A stretch of DNA of 64,000 nucleotides from Acidaminococcus fermentans DSM 20731 (GTDB taxonomy: Bacteria; Bacillota; Negativicutes; Acidaminococcales; Acidaminococcaceae): positions 1-64,000 of the forward strand of contig NC_013740.1 in the NCBI RefSeq assembly GCF_000025305.1. Direction: 5' to 3'. Positions 34,238 to 45,937 of the stretch are shown here, piece after piece (within the stretch, counting starts at the first letter, position 1; each line of letters opens with the position of its first letter). A model generated the notes under the pieces. The model made no database searches. It was not told the DNA's origin and worked only from the letters and a program-made list of their open reading frames with translations. The translations under genes were made by a program, and so were the position numbers.

Positions 34238-34615
34238 ATGAGTTTACGGAAGGATAAAGCAAAGGAAATCGATTTTACCATCACCGTCCATGGGGTTTCG
34301 GCCCACGGTTCCACGCCCCATCTGGGGAAGGATGCCATTGTGGCGGCTTCGGCGGTGGTCCAGGCGGCCCAGACCCTGGTGAGCCGGGTGAACAATCCCC
34401 TCCGTCCCCTGGTCCTGGGGTTTGAAAGCGTCAGGGCCGGGAAACAGTTCAACATCGTCTGCGACAAGGTCCAGCTGACCGGCTGTCTCCAGGCCTACGA
34501 CGACGAACTGCTCATGGACATGGCGGACAAACTGAAGAAACTGGCCCGGCGGACGGCGGAAACTTTTGACTGCCGCAGCGAAATGGCCCTGCTGCCGGAA
34601 GGGGGCGCCTGCTGA
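34238..34615 (+). CDS. Solitary M20 peptidase dimerisation (lid) domain
   Basis: A 125-residue protein equal to just the lid/dimerisation domain of an M20D amidohydrolase. It has TITVHGVSAHGSTPHLGKDA (about 14-33) with the conserved lid His23, and ends at the boundary where the polypeptide would return to the catalytic domain. Both metal-binding halves are absent. It has its own AAAGGAC ribosome site and overlaps the next M20 gene by one base (TGATG), so it is translated in step with it. It may be the decayed remnant of a former M20 gene whose 5' part was replaced by the repeat-rich sequence upstream, or a functional accessory subunit. Confidence 0.7.
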   Translation: MSLRKDKAKEIDFTITVHGVSAHGSTPHLGKDAIVAASAVVQAAQTLVSRVNNPLRPLVLGFESVRAGKQFNIVCDKVQLTGCLQAYDDELLMDMADKLKKLARRTAETFDCRSEMALLPEGGAC

Positions 34616-35790
34616 TGGACGTAAAGGCCCTGGCGGCTGACGAAAAAGCGTACATCCTGGAACAGCGGCACTGGCTCCATGCCCATCCGGAACTGGGGCG
34701 GGAAGAAAAAAACACCACCGCCCACATTGCGGCGGAACTGGAAAGAATGGGGATCCCGGTCCAGACTTTCCCGGATATCACCGGCTGCATCGGCACCATC
34801 CAGGGGACCAAGGGGCCGGGAAAGACACTGATGCTCCGGGCGGACATCGATGCCCTGCCCATCCAGGAGGCGGATCTGACCAAAACCTATGCCTCCCAGA
34901 ATCCCGGGGTCATGCATGCCTGCGGGCACGACTGCCATACGGCCATGCTCCTGGGAGCGGCCAAAATCCTCAGCGCCCACCGGGATGCCTTTCCAGGCAA
35001 GGTGAAACTGCTGTTCCAAATGGGGGAAGAAATCGGCACCGAGTCCCGTCATTATGTGGAAAAGGGTTGCCTGGATGATGTGGACGCCATTTTCGGCATG
35101 CATATCTGGGCCCTGCTGGATGCCGGGACCGCCAATCTGGAAGACAGGGAACGGATGGCCTGCAGCGACCGGTTCACCCTTACCCTTACCGGGAAAACGG
35201 CCCTTTCCGATGCCCCGGAACAGGGAGCGGATCCCCTGGCGGCGGCTGCCTCCGTGGTCATGGGGCTCCAGCAGCTGGTGAGCCGGCAGAACGACCCGGA
35301 AAACACCTTTGTGCTCACGGTGGGGATGATGAACAGCGAAGGGAACAAAGGAGAGCTGGCCCGGTCCGTCCAGCTGGTGGGCACCACCCGGACCTTCAAC
35401 AAGGCTTTCCGGAAGACCCTGCCGGAGAAAATCGAAAAAGTGGCCCGGGCCTTTGGGGAAGGGCTGGGGTGCCAGGTGGACTGCACCTATTTCTTTGGGC
35501 CCGCCCCTCTTATCAACGAACACCGGAATCTGAACGATTGCGGGCGGAAAGCGGTGGCCCGGATTATGGGGGACAAAGCCCTGGTTCCCATGGAAAAGCA
35601 GATGGGGGCGGAAGATTTTTCCGTGTTCATGGAAAAGGTCCCCGGGGTGTTTCTGTTCCTGGGAGCCAGGAACAAAGAAAAGGGCATCTGCTGCGTCCAT
35701 CACCATCCCGGATTTGAAGTGGACGAAGACGTGCTGCCCAACGGGACGGGAATCGAGGTCCAGTTTGCGCTGGAGTATTTGAATGGATGA
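34615..35790 (+). CDS. M20 amidohydrolase (AbgB/HipO-like)
   Basis: A 391-residue metal-dependent amidohydrolase. Metal-site motifs are HAHPELG (22-28), RADIDALPI (75-83), HACGHDCH (101-108), GEE (137-139) and His163. The C-terminal AEDFSVF matches the family. Likely substrates are N-acyl or aminobenzoyl amino acids. The lid domain is present, but its conserved GxxxHxSxP reads GKTALSDAP (193-201), with Leu197 in place of His. That His reaches into the partner subunit in related enzymes. The solitary lid protein translated just upstream retains His at the aligned position. Confidence 0.85.
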   Translation: MDVKALAADEKAYILEQRHWLHAHPELGREEKNTTAHIAAELERMGIPVQTFPDITGCIGTIQGTKGPGKTLMLRADIDALPIQEADLTKTYASQNPGVMHACGHDCHTAMLLGAAKILSAHRDAFPGKVKLLFQMGEEIGTESRHYVEKGCLDDVDAIFGMHIWALLDAGTANLEDRERMACSDRFTLTLTGKTALSDAPEQGADPLAAAASVVMGLQQLVSRQNDPENTFVLTVGMMNSEGNKGELARSVQLVGTTRTFNKAFRKTLPEKIEKVARAFGEGLGCQVDCTYFFGPAPLINEHRNLNDCGRKAVARIMGDKALVPMEKQMGAEDFSVFMEKVPGVFLFLGARNKEKGICCVHHHPGFEVDEDVLPNGTGIEVQFALEYLNG

Positions 35791-36904: not shown

Positions 36905-36933
36905 AAGCCCGTCACTTTGGTGGCGGGCTTTTT
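36905..36933 (+). terminator. Terminator after tRNA-Thr
   Basis: AAGCCCGTCAC / GTGGCGGGCTT stem followed by TTTT. Confidence 0.85.
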
Positions 36934-36999
36934 TGCGTTTGACATCTTTCCCAAAATTCGGCATAATGAAAAATAAACTGTTCCGGAGGTGCTCCTGCT

Positions 37000-37914
37000 G
37001 TGGCCCAAATCCTGCTGCCCCTGTTCCTGTTCTGCGTGTCCCTGCTGCCGGCGGCCTATCTCCGCTATTACCCTTTTCGGTCCATTGTACGGCCTTCCAC
37101 CCGCCATTTCCTGCTGTGCGGGCATTTGTACATTTTCCTGTTCGAATTTGTCCTGCTGGCCGGTCTTTTTGGCCGGGGGCTCATGAAATTTGAAACCGGC
37201 ACCTTCCAGTTCCTGTATTATTTCTGCTATCTGCCCTATCTGCTGCTGCTGGTGTTCACCGTCCGGCCTTTCTGGCTCCGGCATCTGTTCGTACTGGGGC
37301 TCCAGGCCATTTACATGATCCTTATCCATACCCTGTGTCTGGAAATCTTCAAATTGTTCCTGCCGGAGGCCTGGCATACCAACCGGGTCCTGCCCTATTT
37401 CTCTCTGTATCTGGGGCTGTTCCTGCTGGGGATGCCCCTGGCCCTGAAGGTATTGGGAAAACTGTTTACCCGGGAACAGCTTACATCCCCCCGGCCTGCT
37501 TTCTGGACCTGGCTGGGGCCCATTCCGCTCCTGCTGTGCTACTACCATGCCAATCAGGGCTATTTCATCCTGGATCCGGAGATCCTGTTCCATCCTTTTT
37601 TCCAGTTGTATATCCTGATTACCCTGGGGATGCTGGTGAGTGTGGCTTTGCTGCTGGTCCGGTCTCTTCAGGGAGGGCTTCGGCAGACCCAGACCATGCT
37701 CCAGGTGAAGGAACAGAATCTCCGGCTCCAGGGTCAGCTGAATGTCCTGAACGATTACGCGGCCGCGCTCCGGAAAGAACAGCAGGAACTGGCCATCCTC
37801 CGGCATGACAGCCGGCATCAGCTGCGCCTTCTGGGGGAATTGGCGGAGAACGGTCAGTTTGGGGAAGCGGAAAAGCATCTGCTGAAGCTGCGGAAAGAGG
37901 TGGCGGATAAATGA
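37000..37914 (+). CDS. Membrane sensor with phospho-acceptor His but no ATPase domain
   Basis: A 304-residue protein with about seven membrane segments (residues 1-220), a coiled-coil linker (about 222-262) and a short helix-hairpin, ILRHDSRHQLRLLGELAENG (266-285). This is the acceptor box of AgrC/LytS-type histidine kinases, with His269 as expected acceptor. It stops about 35 residues later with no HATPase domain. The start is a GTG with GGAGG ten bases upstream. It overlaps the next gene by four bases (ATGA). It is likely one half of a two-protein sensor, with the ATPase supplied by the neighbour. Confidence 0.75.
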   Translation: MAQILLPLFLFCVSLLPAAYLRYYPFRSIVRPSTRHFLLCGHLYIFLFEFVLLAGLFGRGLMKFETGTFQFLYYFCYLPYLLLLVFTVRPFWLRHLFVLGLQAIYMILIHTLCLEIFKLFLPEAWHTNRVLPYFSLYLGLFLLGMPLALKVLGKLFTREQLTSPRPAFWTWLGPIPLLLCYYHANQGYFILDPEILFHPFFQLYILITLGMLVSVALLLVRSLQGGLRQTQTMLQVKEQNLRLQGQLNVLNDYAAALRKEQQELAILRHDSRHQLRLLGELAENGQFGEAEKHLLKLRKEVADK

Positions 37915-39260
37915 GCCCGCTTTTTGAAACCATTTTGGGCCCGTTGGTCTTTGTGCTGATCTTCCAGCCCTTTTACCTGCTCCAGATCCTTCCCTTCTGG
38001 AATTTTCTGGAGCCTGACCGGAAAAAATTCATCCGGAACGGCTGGCTGCTCCTGTTTTTCCTGGACGTGGGGCTGACCATGGGACTGGTCCGGTCCGGTG
38101 TTTTTTCTTCCATTCCCCGGGCCTACTGGGCCTGCGGCTATATCATCTGGATTCCCCAGTTCCTGCTGAGTTTTTTGACCACCCGGAAGTACTGGGTGGG
38201 GCATCTGTTCATCCTCTCTTTCCGGGTCCTGCTTTCCAGCTGTTTTTATACTTTTCTCTGGCACTTTTTTCTGTATTTCTGGCCGGAAAGCGCCTTTTCT
38301 TCCATGTATTTCTGGCAGATTTTATTCTATGGAGCAGAATGCCTGCTGATTTTCCCCTTTGTTCTCCGGTTCCTGACCCGGACCTTCAGCCATTTCCGGG
38401 AGGCTGCGGCCCGTCGGTACTGGCGGCTGACGGCCCTGATCCCCATGGTGCTGGCAGGAGAAACCCTGTATGTGAGCGTGTACGATTCCCAGGAACGGTA
38501 TTTCGATCTGCTGGAAGCCCGGATCCTTCTGCTGCTGATAACGGTGCTGATCATGGCCAGTATCCGCACGGCCCAACAGGAAGTTTATGACGAAATCAGC
38601 GCCCGGGAAGAAAAACACCAGCTGGAGCAGCAGGTGGTGTCCGCGGCCAACTATGTAAAAATGTCCCGGGAATCCCGGCAGCGGCTGGAAGCCATCTACC
38701 GGGAAAAACGGGACCATCTGGATCAGCTGCTGGACCTGGTCCGGCGGAAGGACCGGGTGGGCGTGCTGACTTATATCGAAGAACTGGGAGAAGAATTCAA
38801 CAGCACCAAACTGCCCCAGTACTGCCGGAATCCCCTGATCAATGCGGCCCTGACCGTGTATCTCTCCCGGGCACGGGAAGAAGGAATCCCCACCACCGTT
38901 TCCGTGGACCTGCCCCAGGATCTTATCTGTAGCGGGGATCTTTCTATTGTCCTTTCCAACCTGGTGGAAAATGCCCTGATTGCCAGCGAAAAGCAGCCGG
39001 AGGACCGGCGGAATATCACGGTGTTGGCCCTGCGCCATGGGGATATGCTGAACATCCTGGTGAAAAACATGTTCGATGCGCCGGTGCAACTGGGCGAGGA
39101 CGGACTTCCGGTGACTCACGTGAAGGGCCACGGCATCGGCATGAAATCCCTGGCCCGGTTCCGGGATAAATACGGAGCCAGTGTCCTGTGCCAGCAGAAA
39201 GAAGGCTGGTTCCTTACCTACCTCCAGCTGGACATGCGGGCGAAAGGAGTGGGAGATTAA
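37911..39260 (+). CDS. Membrane histidine kinase with ATPase domain but degenerate His box
   Basis: A 449-residue protein built like its upstream neighbour: about six or seven membrane segments (1-215), a coiled coil, then a kinase core. The ATP-binding domain (about 335-440) has the N box SNLVENALIAS (Asn350, Asn354) and the glycine box GHGIGMKSL (406-414). It therefore belongs to the AgrC/CitA-like HATPase group. At the acceptor box it reads YREKRDHLDQLLDL (263-276), which aligns without gaps to RHDSRHQLRLLGEL of the neighbour but has Arg264-Glu265 in place of His-Asp. It probably phosphorylates the partner's His rather than its own. Confidence 0.8.
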   Translation: MSPLFETILGPLVFVLIFQPFYLLQILPFWNFLEPDRKKFIRNGWLLLFFLDVGLTMGLVRSGVFSSIPRAYWACGYIIWIPQFLLSFLTTRKYWVGHLFILSFRVLLSSCFYTFLWHFFLYFWPESAFSSMYFWQILFYGAECLLIFPFVLRFLTRTFSHFREAAARRYWRLTALIPMVLAGETLYVSVYDSQERYFDLLEARILLLLITVLIMASIRTAQQEVYDEISAREEKHQLEQQVVSAANYVKMSRESRQRLEAIYREKRDHLDQLLDLVRRKDRVGVLTYIEELGEEFNSTKLPQYCRNPLINAALTVYLSRAREEGIPTTVSVDLPQDLICSGDLSIVLSNLVENALIASEKQPEDRRNITVLALRHGDMLNILVKNMFDAPVQLGEDGLPVTHVKGHGIGMKSLARFRDKYGASVLCQQKEGWFLTYLQLDMRAKGVGD

Positions 39261-39293
39261 AAGGACTGTTGCCTGTGCAACAGCCCTTTATTT
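39260..39293. terminator. Bidirectional terminator between kinase and response regulator
   Basis: AAAGGACTGTTGC / GCAACAGCCCTTT stem. The response-regulator stop codon (39288-39290) lies inside it. Confidence 0.75.
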
Positions 39294-40016
39294 CGGTGCA
39301 AACATGAACTGGAAATACTGTTCCTGGAAATCCCGGTATTTCCGCTTGCCCAGGGGAATCTGGTGGCCCTGGATCTCCACGTAGTCGGTTTTGATCATGT
39401 GGATGGCGGAAAGGTTCACCAGGTAGCCTTTGTTGGGAGATACGAACTGGCCCGGAGCAATCTTGTCCAGATCCGTCTTCATTTCCTGGCCGGATTTCCG
39501 GGTTTCCAGGGTACTCCCGTCAGCCAGGTACACTTCCAGTACATGGCCGTGGCTTTCCAGGAAGAGAATCTGGGCGATTTCCTCCACCCGGACGCCCCCT
39601 CCCACCAGCCGGAAAATGACCTTGGCGCTGTTCCGCTGGCGGATGTAGGCAATGGCACGGTCCATGGCCTTGGAGAACTGGGCCTGGGTAAAGGGCTTCA
39701 GAAGATAATCCGTGGCTTTCACCTCAAAAGCTTCTACGGCGAATTCGTCGCTGGTGGTGAGGAAAATGATCTCCGCCCGGCTGTGGTGGTCCCGGAGTTC
39801 CCGGGCCACGTCGGTGCCCAAAATCCCGGGCATGCACACATCCAGAAGTACGATATCGAAGAAATCCCCTTTGTCCACCGCTTCTATAAAAGCGAAGGCG
39901 TTTTCAAAAGTCTGATAGTCTACATGCTCTTTGCGGTTCTGGAAGTATTTCTCTGAAGCTTCCCGGATCTTCTGGATCTGGTCGGCCTGGTCATCACAAA
40001 TGGCAATGTGCAGCAT
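39288..40016 (-). CDS. LytTR-family response regulator
   Basis: A 242-residue AgrA/LytR-type regulator. The receiver domain (1-120) has the acidic pair CDD at 7-9, the phospho-acceptor Asp59 in LLDVCMPG, a Thr in LTTSDE and Lys in DYLLKPF. The C-terminal LytTR DNA-binding domain (about 138-240) has FLESHGHVLEVYLADG and FVSPNKGYLVNLSAIHMI. AAGGAGG precedes ATG 40016. It converges on the two sensor genes, so it is the expected partner. The gene faces the large adhesin across a 548-base spacer, a candidate target. Confidence 0.92.
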   Translation of the reverse strand: MLHIAICDDQADQIQKIREASEKYFQNRKEHVDYQTFENAFAFIEAVDKGDFFDIVLLDVCMPGILGTDVARELRDHHSRAEIIFLTTSDEFAVEAFEVKATDYLLKPFTQAQFSKAMDRAIAYIRQRNSAKVIFRLVGGGVRVEEIAQILFLESHGHVLEVYLADGSTLETRKSGQEMKTDLDKIAPGQFVSPNKGYLVNLSAIHMIKTDYVEIQGHQIPLGKRKYRDFQEQYFQFMFAPK

Positions 40017-40564
40017 GATCGGTTCCCCTCCTTCAGCTCTATTCATCTCCATTATACACAAACTTCAAAATCCCTTTTTAAAATCGTCCTGAAAGGGCGG
40101 TTTTTTTTCATAAAGAGAAGACCCGGATATCTTCCTCAAAGGAACAAATTATCAGAAAAATACGAAGAAACATTTTATGCCAAAAAAACGCCCTTTCATG
40201 GAATTTGTAAATTTTTCCCATTTTGGCGTGTTATAGTTTAGACAACCAATCAAGTGTCTGGCGAAAACTCCACTGGACTACCGCGGAAGGAATGTTGGAA
40301 ACCCGGAAAAATTCTCTGAAAACATGAATTTCCATCTAAATAAAAAATGGAAAATTCCGTAAATACGTATTGTGGATACAAACGAATATCTGCATGAAAA
40401 GGAATATACCGGAGAAAAAATAAAAAATCCTGAAAAGCAAGGGAATCAGGTGAAAAATATCTTGAAAACAAATCGGATGTCCGGAAGCGCGCACTGAGGC
40501 ATCCAACCAGATAATGCATGAAAATCCATCAGAAAGGCTTGAACAAGAAAAGGGGTGTGGCTTT
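40017..40564. other. AT-rich spacer between response regulator and adhesin
   Basis: A 548-base stretch, clearly more AT-rich than its surroundings, with no coding sequence recognised. It must hold divergent promoters. TATAGT at 40232 and ATTATA (minus -10) at 40051 are seen without convincing -35 elements, as expected of activator-dependent promoters. LytTR-type direct repeats were looked for but none was clear. Confidence 0.5.
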
Positions 40565-43500
40565 ATGAACAAGATCTACAAGGTGATCTGGAACAAAACA
40601 CGGGGTATGTACATGGTGGTTTCCGAACTGGCCAAAGGCCAGTCCAAGGACGGACGCCGGGCCGTGGGTCGGAAAAAAGTGGCACAGACCGCTGCGGCTC
40701 TGGCCGTATTCTTCAGCATTGTCTCTATGGGAGGGACGTCTTTTGCGGCGGATACCACGAAGGTCGACTCGTCGACTTCCGGTACGGCGGTAGAAGTTTA
40801 TACCAAAGACGGAACGGATAGCAAAGCGGCTGAACTGGATACCCGCATCACCAATGTGAAGGAATATCTGGAAAAACAGACTTCCGCCACTTATGTGAGT
40901 AAAGCTGATGCCGCCGTACAGGACGGAGCCATCGTCAAAGCAGATAAGACCATCGGTGAGAATGTAACCAACCTGGATGCTGCTCTGGCCAAGGAAACCG
41001 CCGCCCGGATCGGTGCCGATAAAGCCCAGGACAAGGTGATCCAGGCTGTCAATGACAATCTGGTGCAGAGTGTCACTACCATCAACAAGAATGTGGCTGA
41101 TGGATTCACTGCCTTGAACCAGGCAGATGCCAAGGAAGCTGCAGCCCGGGAAGCGAAAGACAATGAACTGAACGAACGGATTACGAACGAAGCCAATGAA
41201 ATCCACAAAACGACGAATCAACTGCAGGGTGATCTCGCTACGGAAACGGCTGCCCGTGAAGCTGGCGATACAGCGCTGAATATCCGGATTACCAATGTGA
41301 AGGCATATCTGGAACAACAGACTTCCGACAAGTATGTGAGCAAGGCCGATGCCGCCGTACAGGATGGGGCCATCGTGAAAGCCAATAAGACCATCGGCGA
41401 AAACGTGACCAACCTGGATGCCGCCCTGGCCAGCGAAACCGCAGCCCGGATCGGTGCGGACAAGGCCCAGGACAAGGTGATCCAGACGGTTAATGACAAT
41501 CTGGTGCAGAGTGTCAATACCATAAACCAGAATATGGCTGCTGGATTCAACGCCCTGAGTCAGGCGGATGCCAATGAACTGGCCGGCCGTGTGGCAGCGG
41601 ATACCGAATTGGCGAAAGCGGTGAACAATGGATTGAGCCTGGACCAGGACAATGTACTGCAAAAGAACACCACCAGTGTGGAAGAGGATGGGACAGTCAC
41701 CACTTCCAAAGAAGCGGCAACGACTCTGGTGATGAACAAAGATGGTAACAACCAGATTACCCTCAGTGAAAACGGGATCAAAGTGGGCCTGAACAGCACC
41801 GTCCAGGATGCCAAGGGATTCTATGCCGGCGGCGATAATGCCGAGGCGGCCAAGGCCGCTCTCAATGCGGACGGCAGCATCAAAGGCGCCGATGGTGCCT
41901 TTGCTGTGGATACCAGCGGCAACGTGACTTCTGGTAACGTGACATCTACCGGGACGGTACAGGGAACTACCCTGACTGATGGAAAAGGTGCGTCCATGAG
42001 CAATGGCGTCGTGACAGGCAAGACGCTGACCGATGGCACCGCTTCTCTTAGCAACGGCAACCTGACGGGAGCTCATAACATTACGGCTGACGGAACCATT
42101 ACCGGGGCGACCCTGACCGATGGCAAAGCCACCATCAGCAATGGCAATATCAAAACCAACGGCGGATTCATCCAGACCGGTGGCGGCAACGTAAACACCC
42201 AGGGCGGCGAAGTCCGTACCAATGGGGGCAAGGTGGCCACTTCCGGCGGTGAAATCAACACCGGATCCGGAGCCATTAAGACCGTAGGCGGCGATATCCT
42301 GACAGCCGGCGGCAAACTGAACACCAGCGGCGGCGACATTGCAGCAGGGACCGGGAACATTTCCGGCCAGAATATTACAGCCAGCGGAGTGCTGCGCGGT
42401 GACAGCCTTACCGTAGCCAAAGGGATGACCGGGCACAGCCTGACCCTGACCGGCGGAGACCTGGATGCAGGAGCCGGGACCATCAAGACTACTGGCAAAG
42501 TACAGGCAGGAACGCTGGAAACCACTGGCGATGCCACCATTGGCGGCGACCTGGATGTAAAAGGTGACCTTTCTGTAGAAGGCAAATTCAATGCCAATAC
42601 CCTGTCCAGTAAACTGGATGAAAACAACTATACCACCATCAACGGTGGAAAGACTCAGTCCATGAATCTGAAGATGGATGCGGCAACGGGTGAAACTAAG
42701 GCCAGTGCCTCTACCTTCGATGAAAAAGGCAGCAATACCTGGGCGAAAGATGATGATTCCATCGGCAAGAGCACTGTTACTGCCGACAGCATCAGCCAGA
42801 AACTTTCGAATACTGGCGATAACCCGACGGCGTATGCAGAATCCACTATGAGCCAGGGTACGGACAACAAGTACACCATGACTGATACCGTAAAGGACGG
42901 GGACAAGACCAACGTGGCCTTCCAGTCTGCAACGGAATCCAGCGATGTAATCACCGAAGGCTCCGGAGATTCCGCCAAGACTTCCACCTTCCGGCAGAAA
43001 ATCGATCAGATCCTCCAGGAAATCAGAACTTCTGATGAAATTTATTCCAAGATCGATCAAACTGTGAATAAAATGAATAGCACGGTGAGGGACGGCGCCA
43101 ACAGCACCTCGGTAGAACAGGGGACTCAGAATATCACTCATACGGCGGAACAGGGAACCATTTCCAATATCGCCAAAGACCTGGTGAACACAGCCACCGG
43201 AAACATGCTCAATACGATTGGCGGCGAAATGAAGACCACTGTCACCGGCGATGTGACGGAAGATTACAAAGCCAACCTGGATACCAAGGTCGGGGGCAAT
43301 GAAACCCGTACCGTGGAAGGCACCTTGACGGAAATGGTAACTGGTGATGTAACGGAAGACTACAAAGCCAACCTGAGCACCACGGTAGGCGGAAACCAGA
43401 CCACGACCGTAACCGGTGACAGCAGCCTGACGGCGGAAAACATCACCAACGAAGCGAAGAACAAGATTACCAACAAGGCTATCGATGTAGAAACCGATGC

Positions 43501-45937
43501 TACCAGTTCCATCGTACAGAAAGTGACGAATGATGCCGGTTCCAATACTTCTACCCAGCTGTCTTATCAGACTAAAGAAGAAATGAGCCAGGCTGATGGC
43601 AAGACTGCTTCCTATCTCCGGGGTGCAGCCGAAGAAAAATCCCAGCTGATTGATGGTAGCCAGAAGACCACCATCGACACCATTGCCGGTCAGACCAATA
43701 CCAACATTACGGATGGAACCAATACATCCAACGACCTGCAGAAAGCAGATCAGATCGCTTCCTCCGTAACCGACGGCACCAATACCACCGTGGTGAACCA
43801 GAATGCCGGAAGCCTCGCTTCCTCCATTACCGACGGGACCAAGGCCAACAACACCAACAGCACCGTAGACAAATCGGAACAGCTGATCAAAGCCAGCGAT
43901 ACCCAGTACAGCGCTACGTCTAAGACAGCTACTAAGATGGAAGATGCCCTGGTAAGCGGCGGCAGTGTCATCGACGTTATCAAGAACCTGGACGATGCAG
44001 CCAACCCGTTCATCGGCAGCGCCGTAACGGATGGCACCAACAGCACTGGCATTACCCAGACGGCAAAAGATATCACCAACACGGCTAAGAACGGTACGAT
44101 CGCCAATGAGGCCAAGGATATCACCAACAACGCTGCGGAAAACATGACCAACACCGTTGGCAAAGATCTGACCACCACTGTCGGTGGCGAAATGAAGACC
44201 ACTGTCACTGGTGATGTGACGGAAGACTACAAAGCCAACCTGAGCACCACGGTAGGCGGAAACCAGACCACGACCGTAACCGGTGACAGCAGCCTCTCTG
44301 CCAAGAACATCACCAATACGGCAACGGAAAAACTGTCCAACGCTGCGGCAGAAATCGAAAACAGCGCTTCTACCTCTATCACCGACAAAGTAGGCGCCAA
44401 TGTAGAGCGGACCATGACCACCAAGAAGATTTCCGAATCTGTGAAGGATGGTACCAAGAGCAACTCCTTCAGCAAGACCGCTGAAAAGGATATCAACATC
44501 ATCACCGATGGCACCAATACCAGCACTTTGAGCCAGCTGGCCGACAGTGTAAATACATCCCTCAAGAACGGAACCCAGTCGCTCAACAATACGAAGACCG
44601 TGACCGAGGATGTAACCAAGGTGACTGACAAGAACACCGGTGCCTTCTCCAGCAGCAGCCAGAAGGCCGATGCCATGACCAACACTGTGAAGAACGGCAG
44701 CAAGAGCAATACTGTAACGGAAACGGCTGCCACTTCTGAACAGAAACTGGTCAGCGGGAACATCATCGACATCCTGAAGGATGCGGAAAACGGGTATGTG
44801 AATACCACCGTTACCAGCAGTGATGGAGCGTCCAGCACCAGTGTGCAGCAGGGGACTGCTGACATCACCAACACCGCCAAACAGGGGACCATCACCAACG
44901 AGGCCAAGGACCTGGTGAACAAGGCAGCTGAAAACATCACCAATACGGCTGGGAACCGGATCCAGGACAAAGTGGGCACGACGACCGTAACCACCACCGA
45001 TGGACTGACCAAACTGACCAACGAAGCCGGGAATCACAAGACCCAGATGGATTATGCAGAAGTGCTGCAAAATCTGTCCGTGGGCGGCAACGCTGCCGTA
45101 GCCGGCAATGTGACGGCCAGCTCCTACAAGGTAGCTGACAAGACCTACATCGACCAGAACGGCATCAACGCCAACAACCAGAAGGTGACCAACGTGGCTG
45201 ACGGCGAAGTGGCTGAAGGCAGCACCGATGCTGTGAACGGCGGCCAGCTCCATGCCACCAACCAGAGAGTCTCCACGGTGGAGAACCGGATGGACGGTGT
45301 GGAAAACCGCGTAGACCGGGTGGAAAACCGGGTGGACAACCTGGACAACCGGATCGACAAGGTGGGCGCAAGTGCAGCCGCTATGGCCAACCTGCACCCC
45401 ATGGACTTCGATGAGGATTCCAAGGTCAGCGTGGCAGCGGCTGTGGGCAGCTACCGCAGCGAAACCGCCGGTGCCCTGGGTGTGTTCTACCGGCCGACGG
45501 ACCGCGTCATGCTGAACGTTTCCACCAGCTTCGGCAACGGGGAAAACATGGTCGGCGGCGGCGTATCCTTCAAGCTGGGCAAGAGCAGCAAACGGCTGCA
45601 GCAGGCAGAAGCCACCAATGCGGCCCTGTCCAAACAGGTGACCAACCTGCAGAACCGGCTGGATGCCCTGCTGGGTGTGCTGAACCCGAACCTGTCCAAG
45701 GCATTCCCGGATGTACCGGCCAACCACTGGGCCTACGAAGCCGTAAGCCGGCTGGCAGGCAACGACATCATCCAGGGATACGAAGATGGCAAGTATCACG
45801 GCGAACGGACCATGAGCCGGTATGAAATGGCGGAAATCATCTACAACGCCCTGTCCAAGGGTGCCAAGGCGGAAGCCAAGCTGGTAGAAGAATTCCGGCC
45901 CGAACTCCAGGCAATGGCTGCTCAAAGAAAAGCGTAA
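40565..45937 (+). CDS. Trimeric autotransporter adhesin (YadA-like) with C-terminal SLH domain
   Basis: A 1,790-residue surface fibre. The N-terminus is an extended signal peptide (ESPR): MNKIYKVIWNKTRG..VVSELAKG, then a hydrophobic core ending SFAADT near 61. A long passenger follows. It has coiled-coil repeats (two copies of an ITNVK..SKADAAVQDGAIV module at about 92-180 and 238-325). A G/T/N-rich beta-type head lies near 420-680. A stalk with repeated GDVTEDYKANL and TDGTNTS segments runs near 830-1500. The YadA anchor barrel (about 1600-1677) is followed by a coiled coil and an SLH domain (about 1713-1770; AFPDVPANHWAYEAVSRLA). The SLH domain would be periplasmic and could tie the barrel to peptidoglycan, as in OmpM of Negativicutes. 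The start at 40565 has AGGGGTG; an upstream ATG lacks the ESPR pattern. Confidence 0.9.
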   Translation: MNKIYKVIWNKTRGMYMVVSELAKGQSKDGRRAVGRKKVAQTAAALAVFFSIVSMGGTSFAADTTKVDSSTSGTAVEVYTKDGTDSKAAELDTRITNVKEYLEKQTSATYVSKADAAVQDGAIVKADKTIGENVTNLDAALAKETAARIGADKAQDKVIQAVNDNLVQSVTTINKNVADGFTALNQADAKEAAAREAKDNELNERITNEANEIHKTTNQLQGDLATETAAREAGDTALNIRITNVKAYLEQQTSDKYVSKADAAVQDGAIVKANKTIGENVTNLDAALASETAARIGADKAQDKVIQTVNDNLVQSVNTINQNMAAGFNALSQADANELAGRVAADTELAKAVNNGLSLDQDNVLQKNTTSVEEDGTVTTSKEAATTLVMNKDGNNQITLSENGIKVGLNSTVQDAKGFYAGGDNAEAAKAALNADGSIKGADGAFAVDTSGNVTSGNVTSTGTVQGTTLTDGKGASMSNGVVTGKTLTDGTASLSNGNLTGAHNITADGTITGATLTDGKATISNGNIKTNGGFIQTGGGNVNTQGGEVRTNGGKVATSGGEINTGSGAIKTVGGDILTAGGKLNTSGGDIAAGTGNISGQNITASGVLRGDSLTVAKGMTGHSLTLTGGDLDAGAGTIKTTGKVQAGTLETTGDATIGGDLDVKGDLSVEGKFNANTLSSKLDENNYTTINGGKTQSMNLKMDAATGETKASASTFDEKGSNTWAKDDDSIGKSTVTADSISQKLSNTGDNPTAYAESTMSQGTDNKYTMTDTVKDGDKTNVAFQSATESSDVITEGSGDSAKTSTFRQKIDQILQEIRTSDEIYSKIDQTVNKMNSTVRDGANSTSVEQGTQNITHTAEQGTISNIAKDLVNTATGNMLNTIGGEMKTTVTGDVTEDYKANLDTKVGGNETRTVEGTLTEMVTGDVTEDYKANLSTTVGGNQTTTVTGDSSLTAENITNEAKNKITNKAIDVETDATSSIVQKVTNDAGSNTSTQLSYQTKEEMSQADGKTASYLRGAAEEKSQLIDGSQKTTIDTIAGQTNTNITDGTNTSNDLQKADQIASSVTDGTNTTVVNQNAGSLASSITDGTKANNTNSTVDKSEQLIKASDTQYSATSKTATKMEDALVSGGSVIDVIKNLDDAANPFIGSAVTDGTNSTGITQTAKDITNTAKNGTIANEAKDITNNAAENMTNTVGKDLTTTVGGEMKTTVTGDVTEDYKANLSTTVGGNQTTTVTGDSSLSAKNITNTATEKLSNAAAEIENSASTSITDKVGANVERTMTTKKISESVKDGTKSNSFSKTAEKDINIITDGTNTSTLSQLADSVNTSLKNGTQSLNNTKTVTEDVTKVTDKNTGAFSSSSQKADAMTNTVKNGSKSNTVTETAATSEQKLVSGNIIDILKDAENGYVNTTVTSSDGASSTSVQQGTADITNTAKQGTITNEAKDLVNKAAENITNTAGNRIQDKVGTTTVTTTDGLTKLTNEAGNHKTQMDYAEVLQNLSVGGNAAVAGNVTASSYKVADKTYIDQNGINANNQKVTNVADGEVAEGSTDAVNGGQLHATNQRVSTVENRMDGVENRVDRVENRVDNLDNRIDKVGASAAAMANLHPMDFDEDSKVSVAAAVGSYRSETAGALGVFYRPTDRVMLNVSTSFGNGENMVGGGVSFKLGKSSKRLQQAEATNAALSKQVTNLQNRLDALLGVLNPNLSKAFPDVPANHWAYEAVSRLAGNDIIQGYEDGKYHGERTMSRYEMAEIIYNALSKGAKAEAKLVEEFRPELQAMAAQRKA

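Follow-up and report, generated by a model that had tools for sequence, protein, structure and literature searches.

Two overlapping genes in the gut bacterium Acidaminococcus fermentans DSM 20731 raise the question of how a membrane kinase works when the acceptor histidine and the ATPase lie on separate proteins. Histidine kinases are commonly regarded as homodimers, and the number of acceptors and ATPases per dimer, like the choice between cis and trans phosphorylation, is usually settled with engineered mutants. The window analysed here is a stretch of 64,000 nucleotides with which the one contig of 2,329,769 bases (NC_013740.1) begins. A sequence-only reading of the window had proposed that the two proteins, here called P1 and P2, carry complementary losses, form an obligate heteromer that phosphorylates in trans, and signal to a convergent LytTR regulator, an arrangement that it did not know as a described system.

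P1, the acceptor subunit, is encoded at 37000–37914 on the forward strand (start GTG at 37000, stop TGA at 37912–37914, 304 aa) and combines a multi-pass membrane domain with a DHp hairpin. A sigma-70-like promoter for the operon, TTGACA-17-CATAAT (36939–36967, forward strand), is putative and rests on a consensus match only (11/12); it sits behind a tRNA-Thr gene and the terminator of that gene (36905–36930). The claim that P1 has an acceptor box and no ATPase is borne out alike by the translation, by Pfam and NCBIfam, and by AlphaFold. The box, RHDSRHQL, occupies residues 268–275 (codons at 37801–37824, forward strand; His269 at 37804–37806) and includes Arg268-His269-Asp270, and the chain stops 35 residues past His269. 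No Pfam or NCBIfam family was found in P1 above cut-off, and an ATPase domain is absent; proteins of this type, matching no family, pass as unknown membrane proteins, an annotation that can now be corrected. The AlphaFold model of P1, made with 36 sequences (mean pLDDT 89), has transmembrane helices, a long continuous helix (residues 199–283) bearing His269 and a closing helix (residues 287–303), with nothing beyond. As far as a predicted structure can do so, the model shows an intact DHp hairpin without anything behind it. In an alignment of 36 P1 relatives only three columns are invariant, of which His269 is one; both R268 and H269 are invariant. A comparison of the P1 membrane domain with solved structures gave no convincing match.

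P2, the ATPase subunit, is encoded at 37911–39260 on the forward strand (start ATG at 37911, stop at 39258–39260, 449 aa). Its start and the P1 stop share the four bases ATGA (37911–37914), an overlap that had been described correctly. P2 consists of a multi-pass membrane domain, a DHp region and a GHKL ATPase of the HATPase_c_5 family (PF14501, E 7.8e-11), the only match to that family above cut-off in the genome. Across 41 relatives there is no variation in the N-box (Asn350/Asn354) or the G-box (Gly408/Gly410), in agreement with the earlier statement that the ATPase is complete. The stretch aligned to the P1 acceptor box reads YREKRDHL (residues 263–270, codons at 38697–38720, forward strand), with Arg264 for His and Glu265 for Asp, also as had been stated. 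The histidine within YREKRDHL was considered as an alternative acceptor and rejected, since the orthologue in genome G001 has YQEKRELL and the residue is not conserved. The AlphaFold model of P2, made with 41 sequences (mean pLDDT 84), includes the ATPase fold, and its best matches among solved structures are to Staphylococcus aureus AgrC: 4bxi, the ATP-binding domain (Z 16.3, rmsd 2.4 over 131 residues), and 6e95 (Z 15.9, rmsd 7.2 over 226 residues). A PDB sequence search with the P1 and P2 profiles gave no match. The resemblance between the multi-helix membrane domains of the two proteins, noted earlier, extends through the DHp regions and reflects homology (23% identity over P2 residues 6–276, E 3.6e-14).

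Of nine Acidaminococcus genomes, six have the P1-P2 pair, and the LytTR regulator is present in exactly those six; both are missing in the other three. Further pairs were found by scanning genome contigs with a P1 profile, in Mitsuokella multacida, in M. jalaludinii and in one Selenomonadaceae metagenome-assembled genome (MAG). That scan recovers close P1 relatives only, and it is the sole coverage of classes outside Negativicutes; within this scope it gave matches in Acidaminococcus, Mitsuokella and the Selenomonadaceae MAG and none elsewhere. The Acidaminococcus and Mitsuokella pairs and that of the MAG have the same gene layout, the same 4-base overlap and a convergent regulator. Across the nine orthologous pairs, from two families, mean conservation of the acceptor box is 0.98 in P1; the matching stretch of P2 scores 0.68, lower than the remaining P2 DHp (0.74). 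The dN/dS values (0.21–0.33 for P1, 0.13–0.33 for P2) show that the pair is kept under purifying selection. A frameshifted or pseudogenised single kinase was rejected as an explanation for the locus because a complete membrane domain, that of P2 itself, stands between the two halves and because relatives keep the layout, and conservation and dN/dS point the same way; the absence of a frameshift artefact, asserted earlier, therefore stands. Apparent frameshifts do occur within P2 in four other genomes: L046:6814-8295 (G006, draft), L047:5211-6558 (G008, draft), L074:2904-4281 (G062) and L220 (G336). Sequencing error, decay and phase variation cannot be told apart in these cases.

A broader survey covered 380 Negativicutes genomes, which were searched with two profiles, one for the kinase family and one for P1-type proteins. 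About 120 loci were retrieved, every family member was aligned, and the acceptor His, N-box and G-box were scored. Because the loci were picked from match lists ordered by rank, the counts do not amount to a census, and P2 genes that were frameshifted or cut by a contig end were scored from their pieces (L046, L047, L074, L147, L203, L207, L208 and L220). With the window included, complementary pairs number 46, in 42 genomes and four families. Outside the window, 45 of the 56 evaluable tandem pairs combine one member that has the His without a working ATPase with another that lacks the His and has an intact ATPase; the His member has no ATPase domain at all in 41 of the 56 and retains a decayed one in four. 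The remaining tandem pairs lack one His only (three pairs), lack one ATPase only (two), are intact (two) or fall elsewhere (four). Among pair members, loss of the His and loss of the ATPase are nearly exclusive (Fisher p = 5e-18), although relatedness inflates this value, the pairs not being independent. By comparison, 59 of 60 single-kinase loci have both His and ATPase boxes, and the last is truncated by a contig end. Relatives that are complete on their own, which the earlier reading had named as a possible refutation, were thus looked for and found, but they occur in different genomes, where they are one-protein systems. Each P1 at the surveyed loci adjoins a P2.

These data establish that the arrangement is recurrent in Negativicutes and is not unique to the window. 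The question whether the two losses always co-occur, raised by the earlier reading, is answered positively for the window and for those 45 pairs, but not without exception. Four loci, L106 (G267), L217 (G177), L122 (G218) and L216 (G220), are tandems with a full pseudokinase that lacks both the His and a working N-box. At L106 and L217 the member with the ATPase also lacks the His, leaving no recognisable acceptor in the pair. Because of L106 and L217, and of the five pairs that lack only one function, complementarity is a rule and not a law.

Evidence on the origin of the split came from a tree built on the membrane domain only, with the trait-defining columns left out; it is a quick tree with some long branches. 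For each half-type the tree implies between 11 and 13 changes, and at least nine are forced by well supported branches, which indicates that the split arose several times. Gene order also varies, with P1-P2 in the window and in many Selenomonadaceae, P2-P1 in G036 and others, and regulator-P1-P2 in G062. The window's own branch of the tree holds three genomes of family f33 (G332, G334 and G336) in which the His partner has a decayed ATPase domain (L219, L220 and L218 are the loci with such partners); this state plausibly represents the step that preceded the state of the window. At the far end are shrunken His partners of about 100 residues, with one membrane helix and a DHp hairpin carrying RHDLRHH, which adjoin His-less GHKL kinases in Selenomonadaceae (L162, L222–L226 and L234); L225, the only one of these scanned, has no Pfam match. 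Fused single kinases next to a LytTR regulator are found in genus g17 (L048–L050). The best explanation for P1 and P2 is a duplicated ordinary kinase whose two copies underwent opposite losses. More broadly, we consider it probable that duplication and complementary decay gave rise repeatedly, within Negativicutes, to obligate heteromeric membrane kinases whose acceptor and ATPase reside on separate but homologous receptors, down to acceptors of one helix and a DHp; these would be the first natural membrane DHp/ATPase splits to be described as a family in which the intermediate stages can still be seen. Evolution appears to have produced the heteromer on many occasions. The intermediates form a series: both copies complete, one function lost, the domain decayed, the domain gone, and the membrane domain nearly gone. 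Such a series lends itself to testing complementary degeneration of paired receptors, heteromer specificity, and switch-like responses of the kind modelled for CheA3/CheA4.

Comparison with known systems narrows what is new about the pair. In Mycobacterium tuberculosis, Rv0600c and Rv0601c consist of an ATPase part plus an acceptor part, and their regulator is of another type than the window's. These two kinase genes, from a different phylum, are said to cooperate with one regulator, TcrA (PMC9274095). A precedent in logic is CheA3/CheA4 of Rhodobacter sphaeroides, a split chemotaxis kinase made up of CheA4, which has no P1 acceptor domain, and CheA3, which has no dimerisation and kinase domains; neither autophosphorylates alone, while the mixture does (PMC3591291). 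As in that system, the acceptor and ATPase in the window are on separate proteins, and the losses are reciprocal and linked; unlike the window pair, CheA3/CheA4 has no paired membrane sensor domains and is not AgrC-type. The same study notes an ATPase domain to be missing from 3.66% of HisKA proteins, and 1.7% as possibly split and bifunctional (PMC3591291). In Synechocystis, Hik36/Hik43 (PilL-N/PilL-C) is likewise a kinase split into acceptor and ATPase proteins, with contact shown by two-hybrid analysis (PMC7656254), but it is CheA-type, its genes are far apart, and it has no membrane sensor pair. The window system resembles AgrC-type GHKL kinases (HPK10) in its multi-pass membrane domain, RHD box, HATPase_c_5 domain and adjacent LytTR regulator. 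It differs from AgrC, a homodimer whose single type of chain holds both acceptor and ATPase, in that the RHD box is only in P1 and the ATPase only in P2. No description of heterodimeric or split GHKL kinases in Negativicutes, or of membrane sensor pairs with reciprocal loss or their repeated origin, was found in the literature searched, which was open-access only. Split kinases are therefore already known, while membrane pairs like P1-P2 are without a description that we could find; the earlier remark that no description of such a system was known to its author survives only in this narrower form, since the idea of a split kinase is established and the arrangement recurs within the class.

The reading that best fits these observations, which upholds the earlier interpretation and which we hold with considerable though not complete confidence, is that P1 and P2 are two halves of one AgrC-type (GHKL, HATPase_c_5) membrane kinase. 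Contacts between the homologous membrane domains and between the DHp helices would join P1 to P2, with a mixed DHp bundle as the result, and within this inferred complex the ATPase of P2 would phosphorylate His269 of P1 in trans. Phosphorylated P1 would then hand its phosphate to the Asp in the LytTR regulator encoded convergently, and this regulator would in turn probably control the adjacent adhesin gene; the complex, the trans phosphorylation, the phosphotransfer and the target are all inferred. The acceptor box of P1 needs phosphorylating and P2 is an adjacent, co-conserved ATPase without an acceptor, and a heteromer is therefore the simplest reading. Given that related bacteria evolved the same division of labour repeatedly, the two proteins most likely work only as a pair, although an obligate heteromer remains an inference.

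In principle, P1 could receive its phosphate from a different cellular kinase, in which case P2 might be a regulator resembling DivL. Heteromeric kinases in which one member is inactive or inhibits the other are known, as in RetS/GacS and in DivL, a pseudokinase that steers its active partner CckA (PMC12189002). The genome also offers a candidate for the additional kinase, a 423-aa frame with a weak match to HATPase_c_5 (E 4e-4, below cut-off), but it is unlinked to the P1-P2 locus. Moreover, the invariant N and G boxes of P2 are unlike those of a decayed pseudokinase, and P1 is next to a P2 at every surveyed locus where it occurs. The partners CckA and GacS are complete kinases, unlike P1, and neither DivL nor RetS/GacS shows reciprocal loss; a complete-kinase partner, which a DivL-like system would have, is lacking here, as P2 has lost the acceptor but P1 has no ATPase. 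We regard this explanation as improbable. Somewhat less so, though still unlikely, is a role for P1 as a Spo0B-like membrane phosphotransferase or phosphatase for the LytTR regulator, with P2 as its signal-gated ATPase partner. There is a weak match to Pfam SPOB_a in the DHp of one Selenomonadaceae P1 (E 0.0027, below cut-off), the single-pass partners of about 100 residues resemble bare acceptor modules, and a free acceptor protein can act as a phosphatase, as in the case of CheA3 (PMC3591291). However, P1 would still need a source of phosphate, and the sole conserved ATPase is that of P2, which is acceptor-less in every complementary pair; a separate phosphatase also leaves the repeated loss of the P2 His unexplained. 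The two roles are compatible, and free P1 may also be a phosphatase.

The possibility that the two genes have no joint function, and that the locus is merely a duplicate in decay or an artefact of assembly, can be given very little credence. While the apparent P2 frameshifts in the two draft relatives (G006 and G008) speak for such an explanation, it is difficult to reconcile with dN/dS values of 0.13–0.33 in both genes, with a layout and box shared by nine species of two families, or with several independent origins. The half-kinase reading of P1 and P2 remains the preferred one.

The regulator to which the pair would signal lies convergent with P2 at 39288–40019 on the reverse strand, an orientation that the sequence-only reading had also given, and has a receiver and a LytTR domain (Pfam Response_reg 6.4e-19, LytTR 3.4e-8). 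Divergent from it, at 40559–45937 on the forward strand, is a gene for a YadA-type trimeric autotransporter adhesin (Pfam ESPR 5.9e-18, YadA anchor 7.3e-13, SLH 6.8e-9). An ESPR gene adjoins the system in four other Acidaminococcus genomes and in the Selenomonadaceae MAG (L043, L044, L045, L047 and L069/L114), and also lies beside the fused kinases L048 and L050. Because of this association in relatives and with fused kinases, the adhesin gene is likely the target of the regulator, although regulation itself is inferred. No convincing direct repeats matching the LytTR consensus were found upstream of the adhesin gene.

An inverted repeat, conserved in relatives, occupies part of the region that separates the divergently oriented genes for regulator and adhesin. 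Arm A (40077–40114) is predicted from folding to form a terminator-like hairpin in the forward direction (fold z -4.1), and this hairpin recurs in a relative, G003. Arm B (40174–40211, reverse strand) is an inverted copy of GAAAGGGCG-TTTTTTT-CAT, without the left stem. Even when up to 2 mismatches are allowed, no third site of the motif exists in the genome, and its restriction to two genomic sites led to a first reading as the operator of the regulator. That reading is no longer regarded as settled, as arm A is terminator-like; since one arm is such a hairpin, the repeat could be an attenuator instead of an operator.

A separate observation concerns a gene pair upstream of P1. A free-standing M20_dimer domain of 125 aa (34238–34615, forward strand; PF07687, 2.9e-10), with HGSTPH intact, lies directly 5' of an M20 peptidase gene (34615–35790, forward strand), and both are next to an AbgT transporter. 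The lid region of the peptidase itself, TGKTALSDAPEQ, is unrecognised as M20_dimer. Here, too, neighbouring genes may have undergone complementary loss, which would make a second case, and a 148-aa counterpart is found in G008 (L047:9807-10253).
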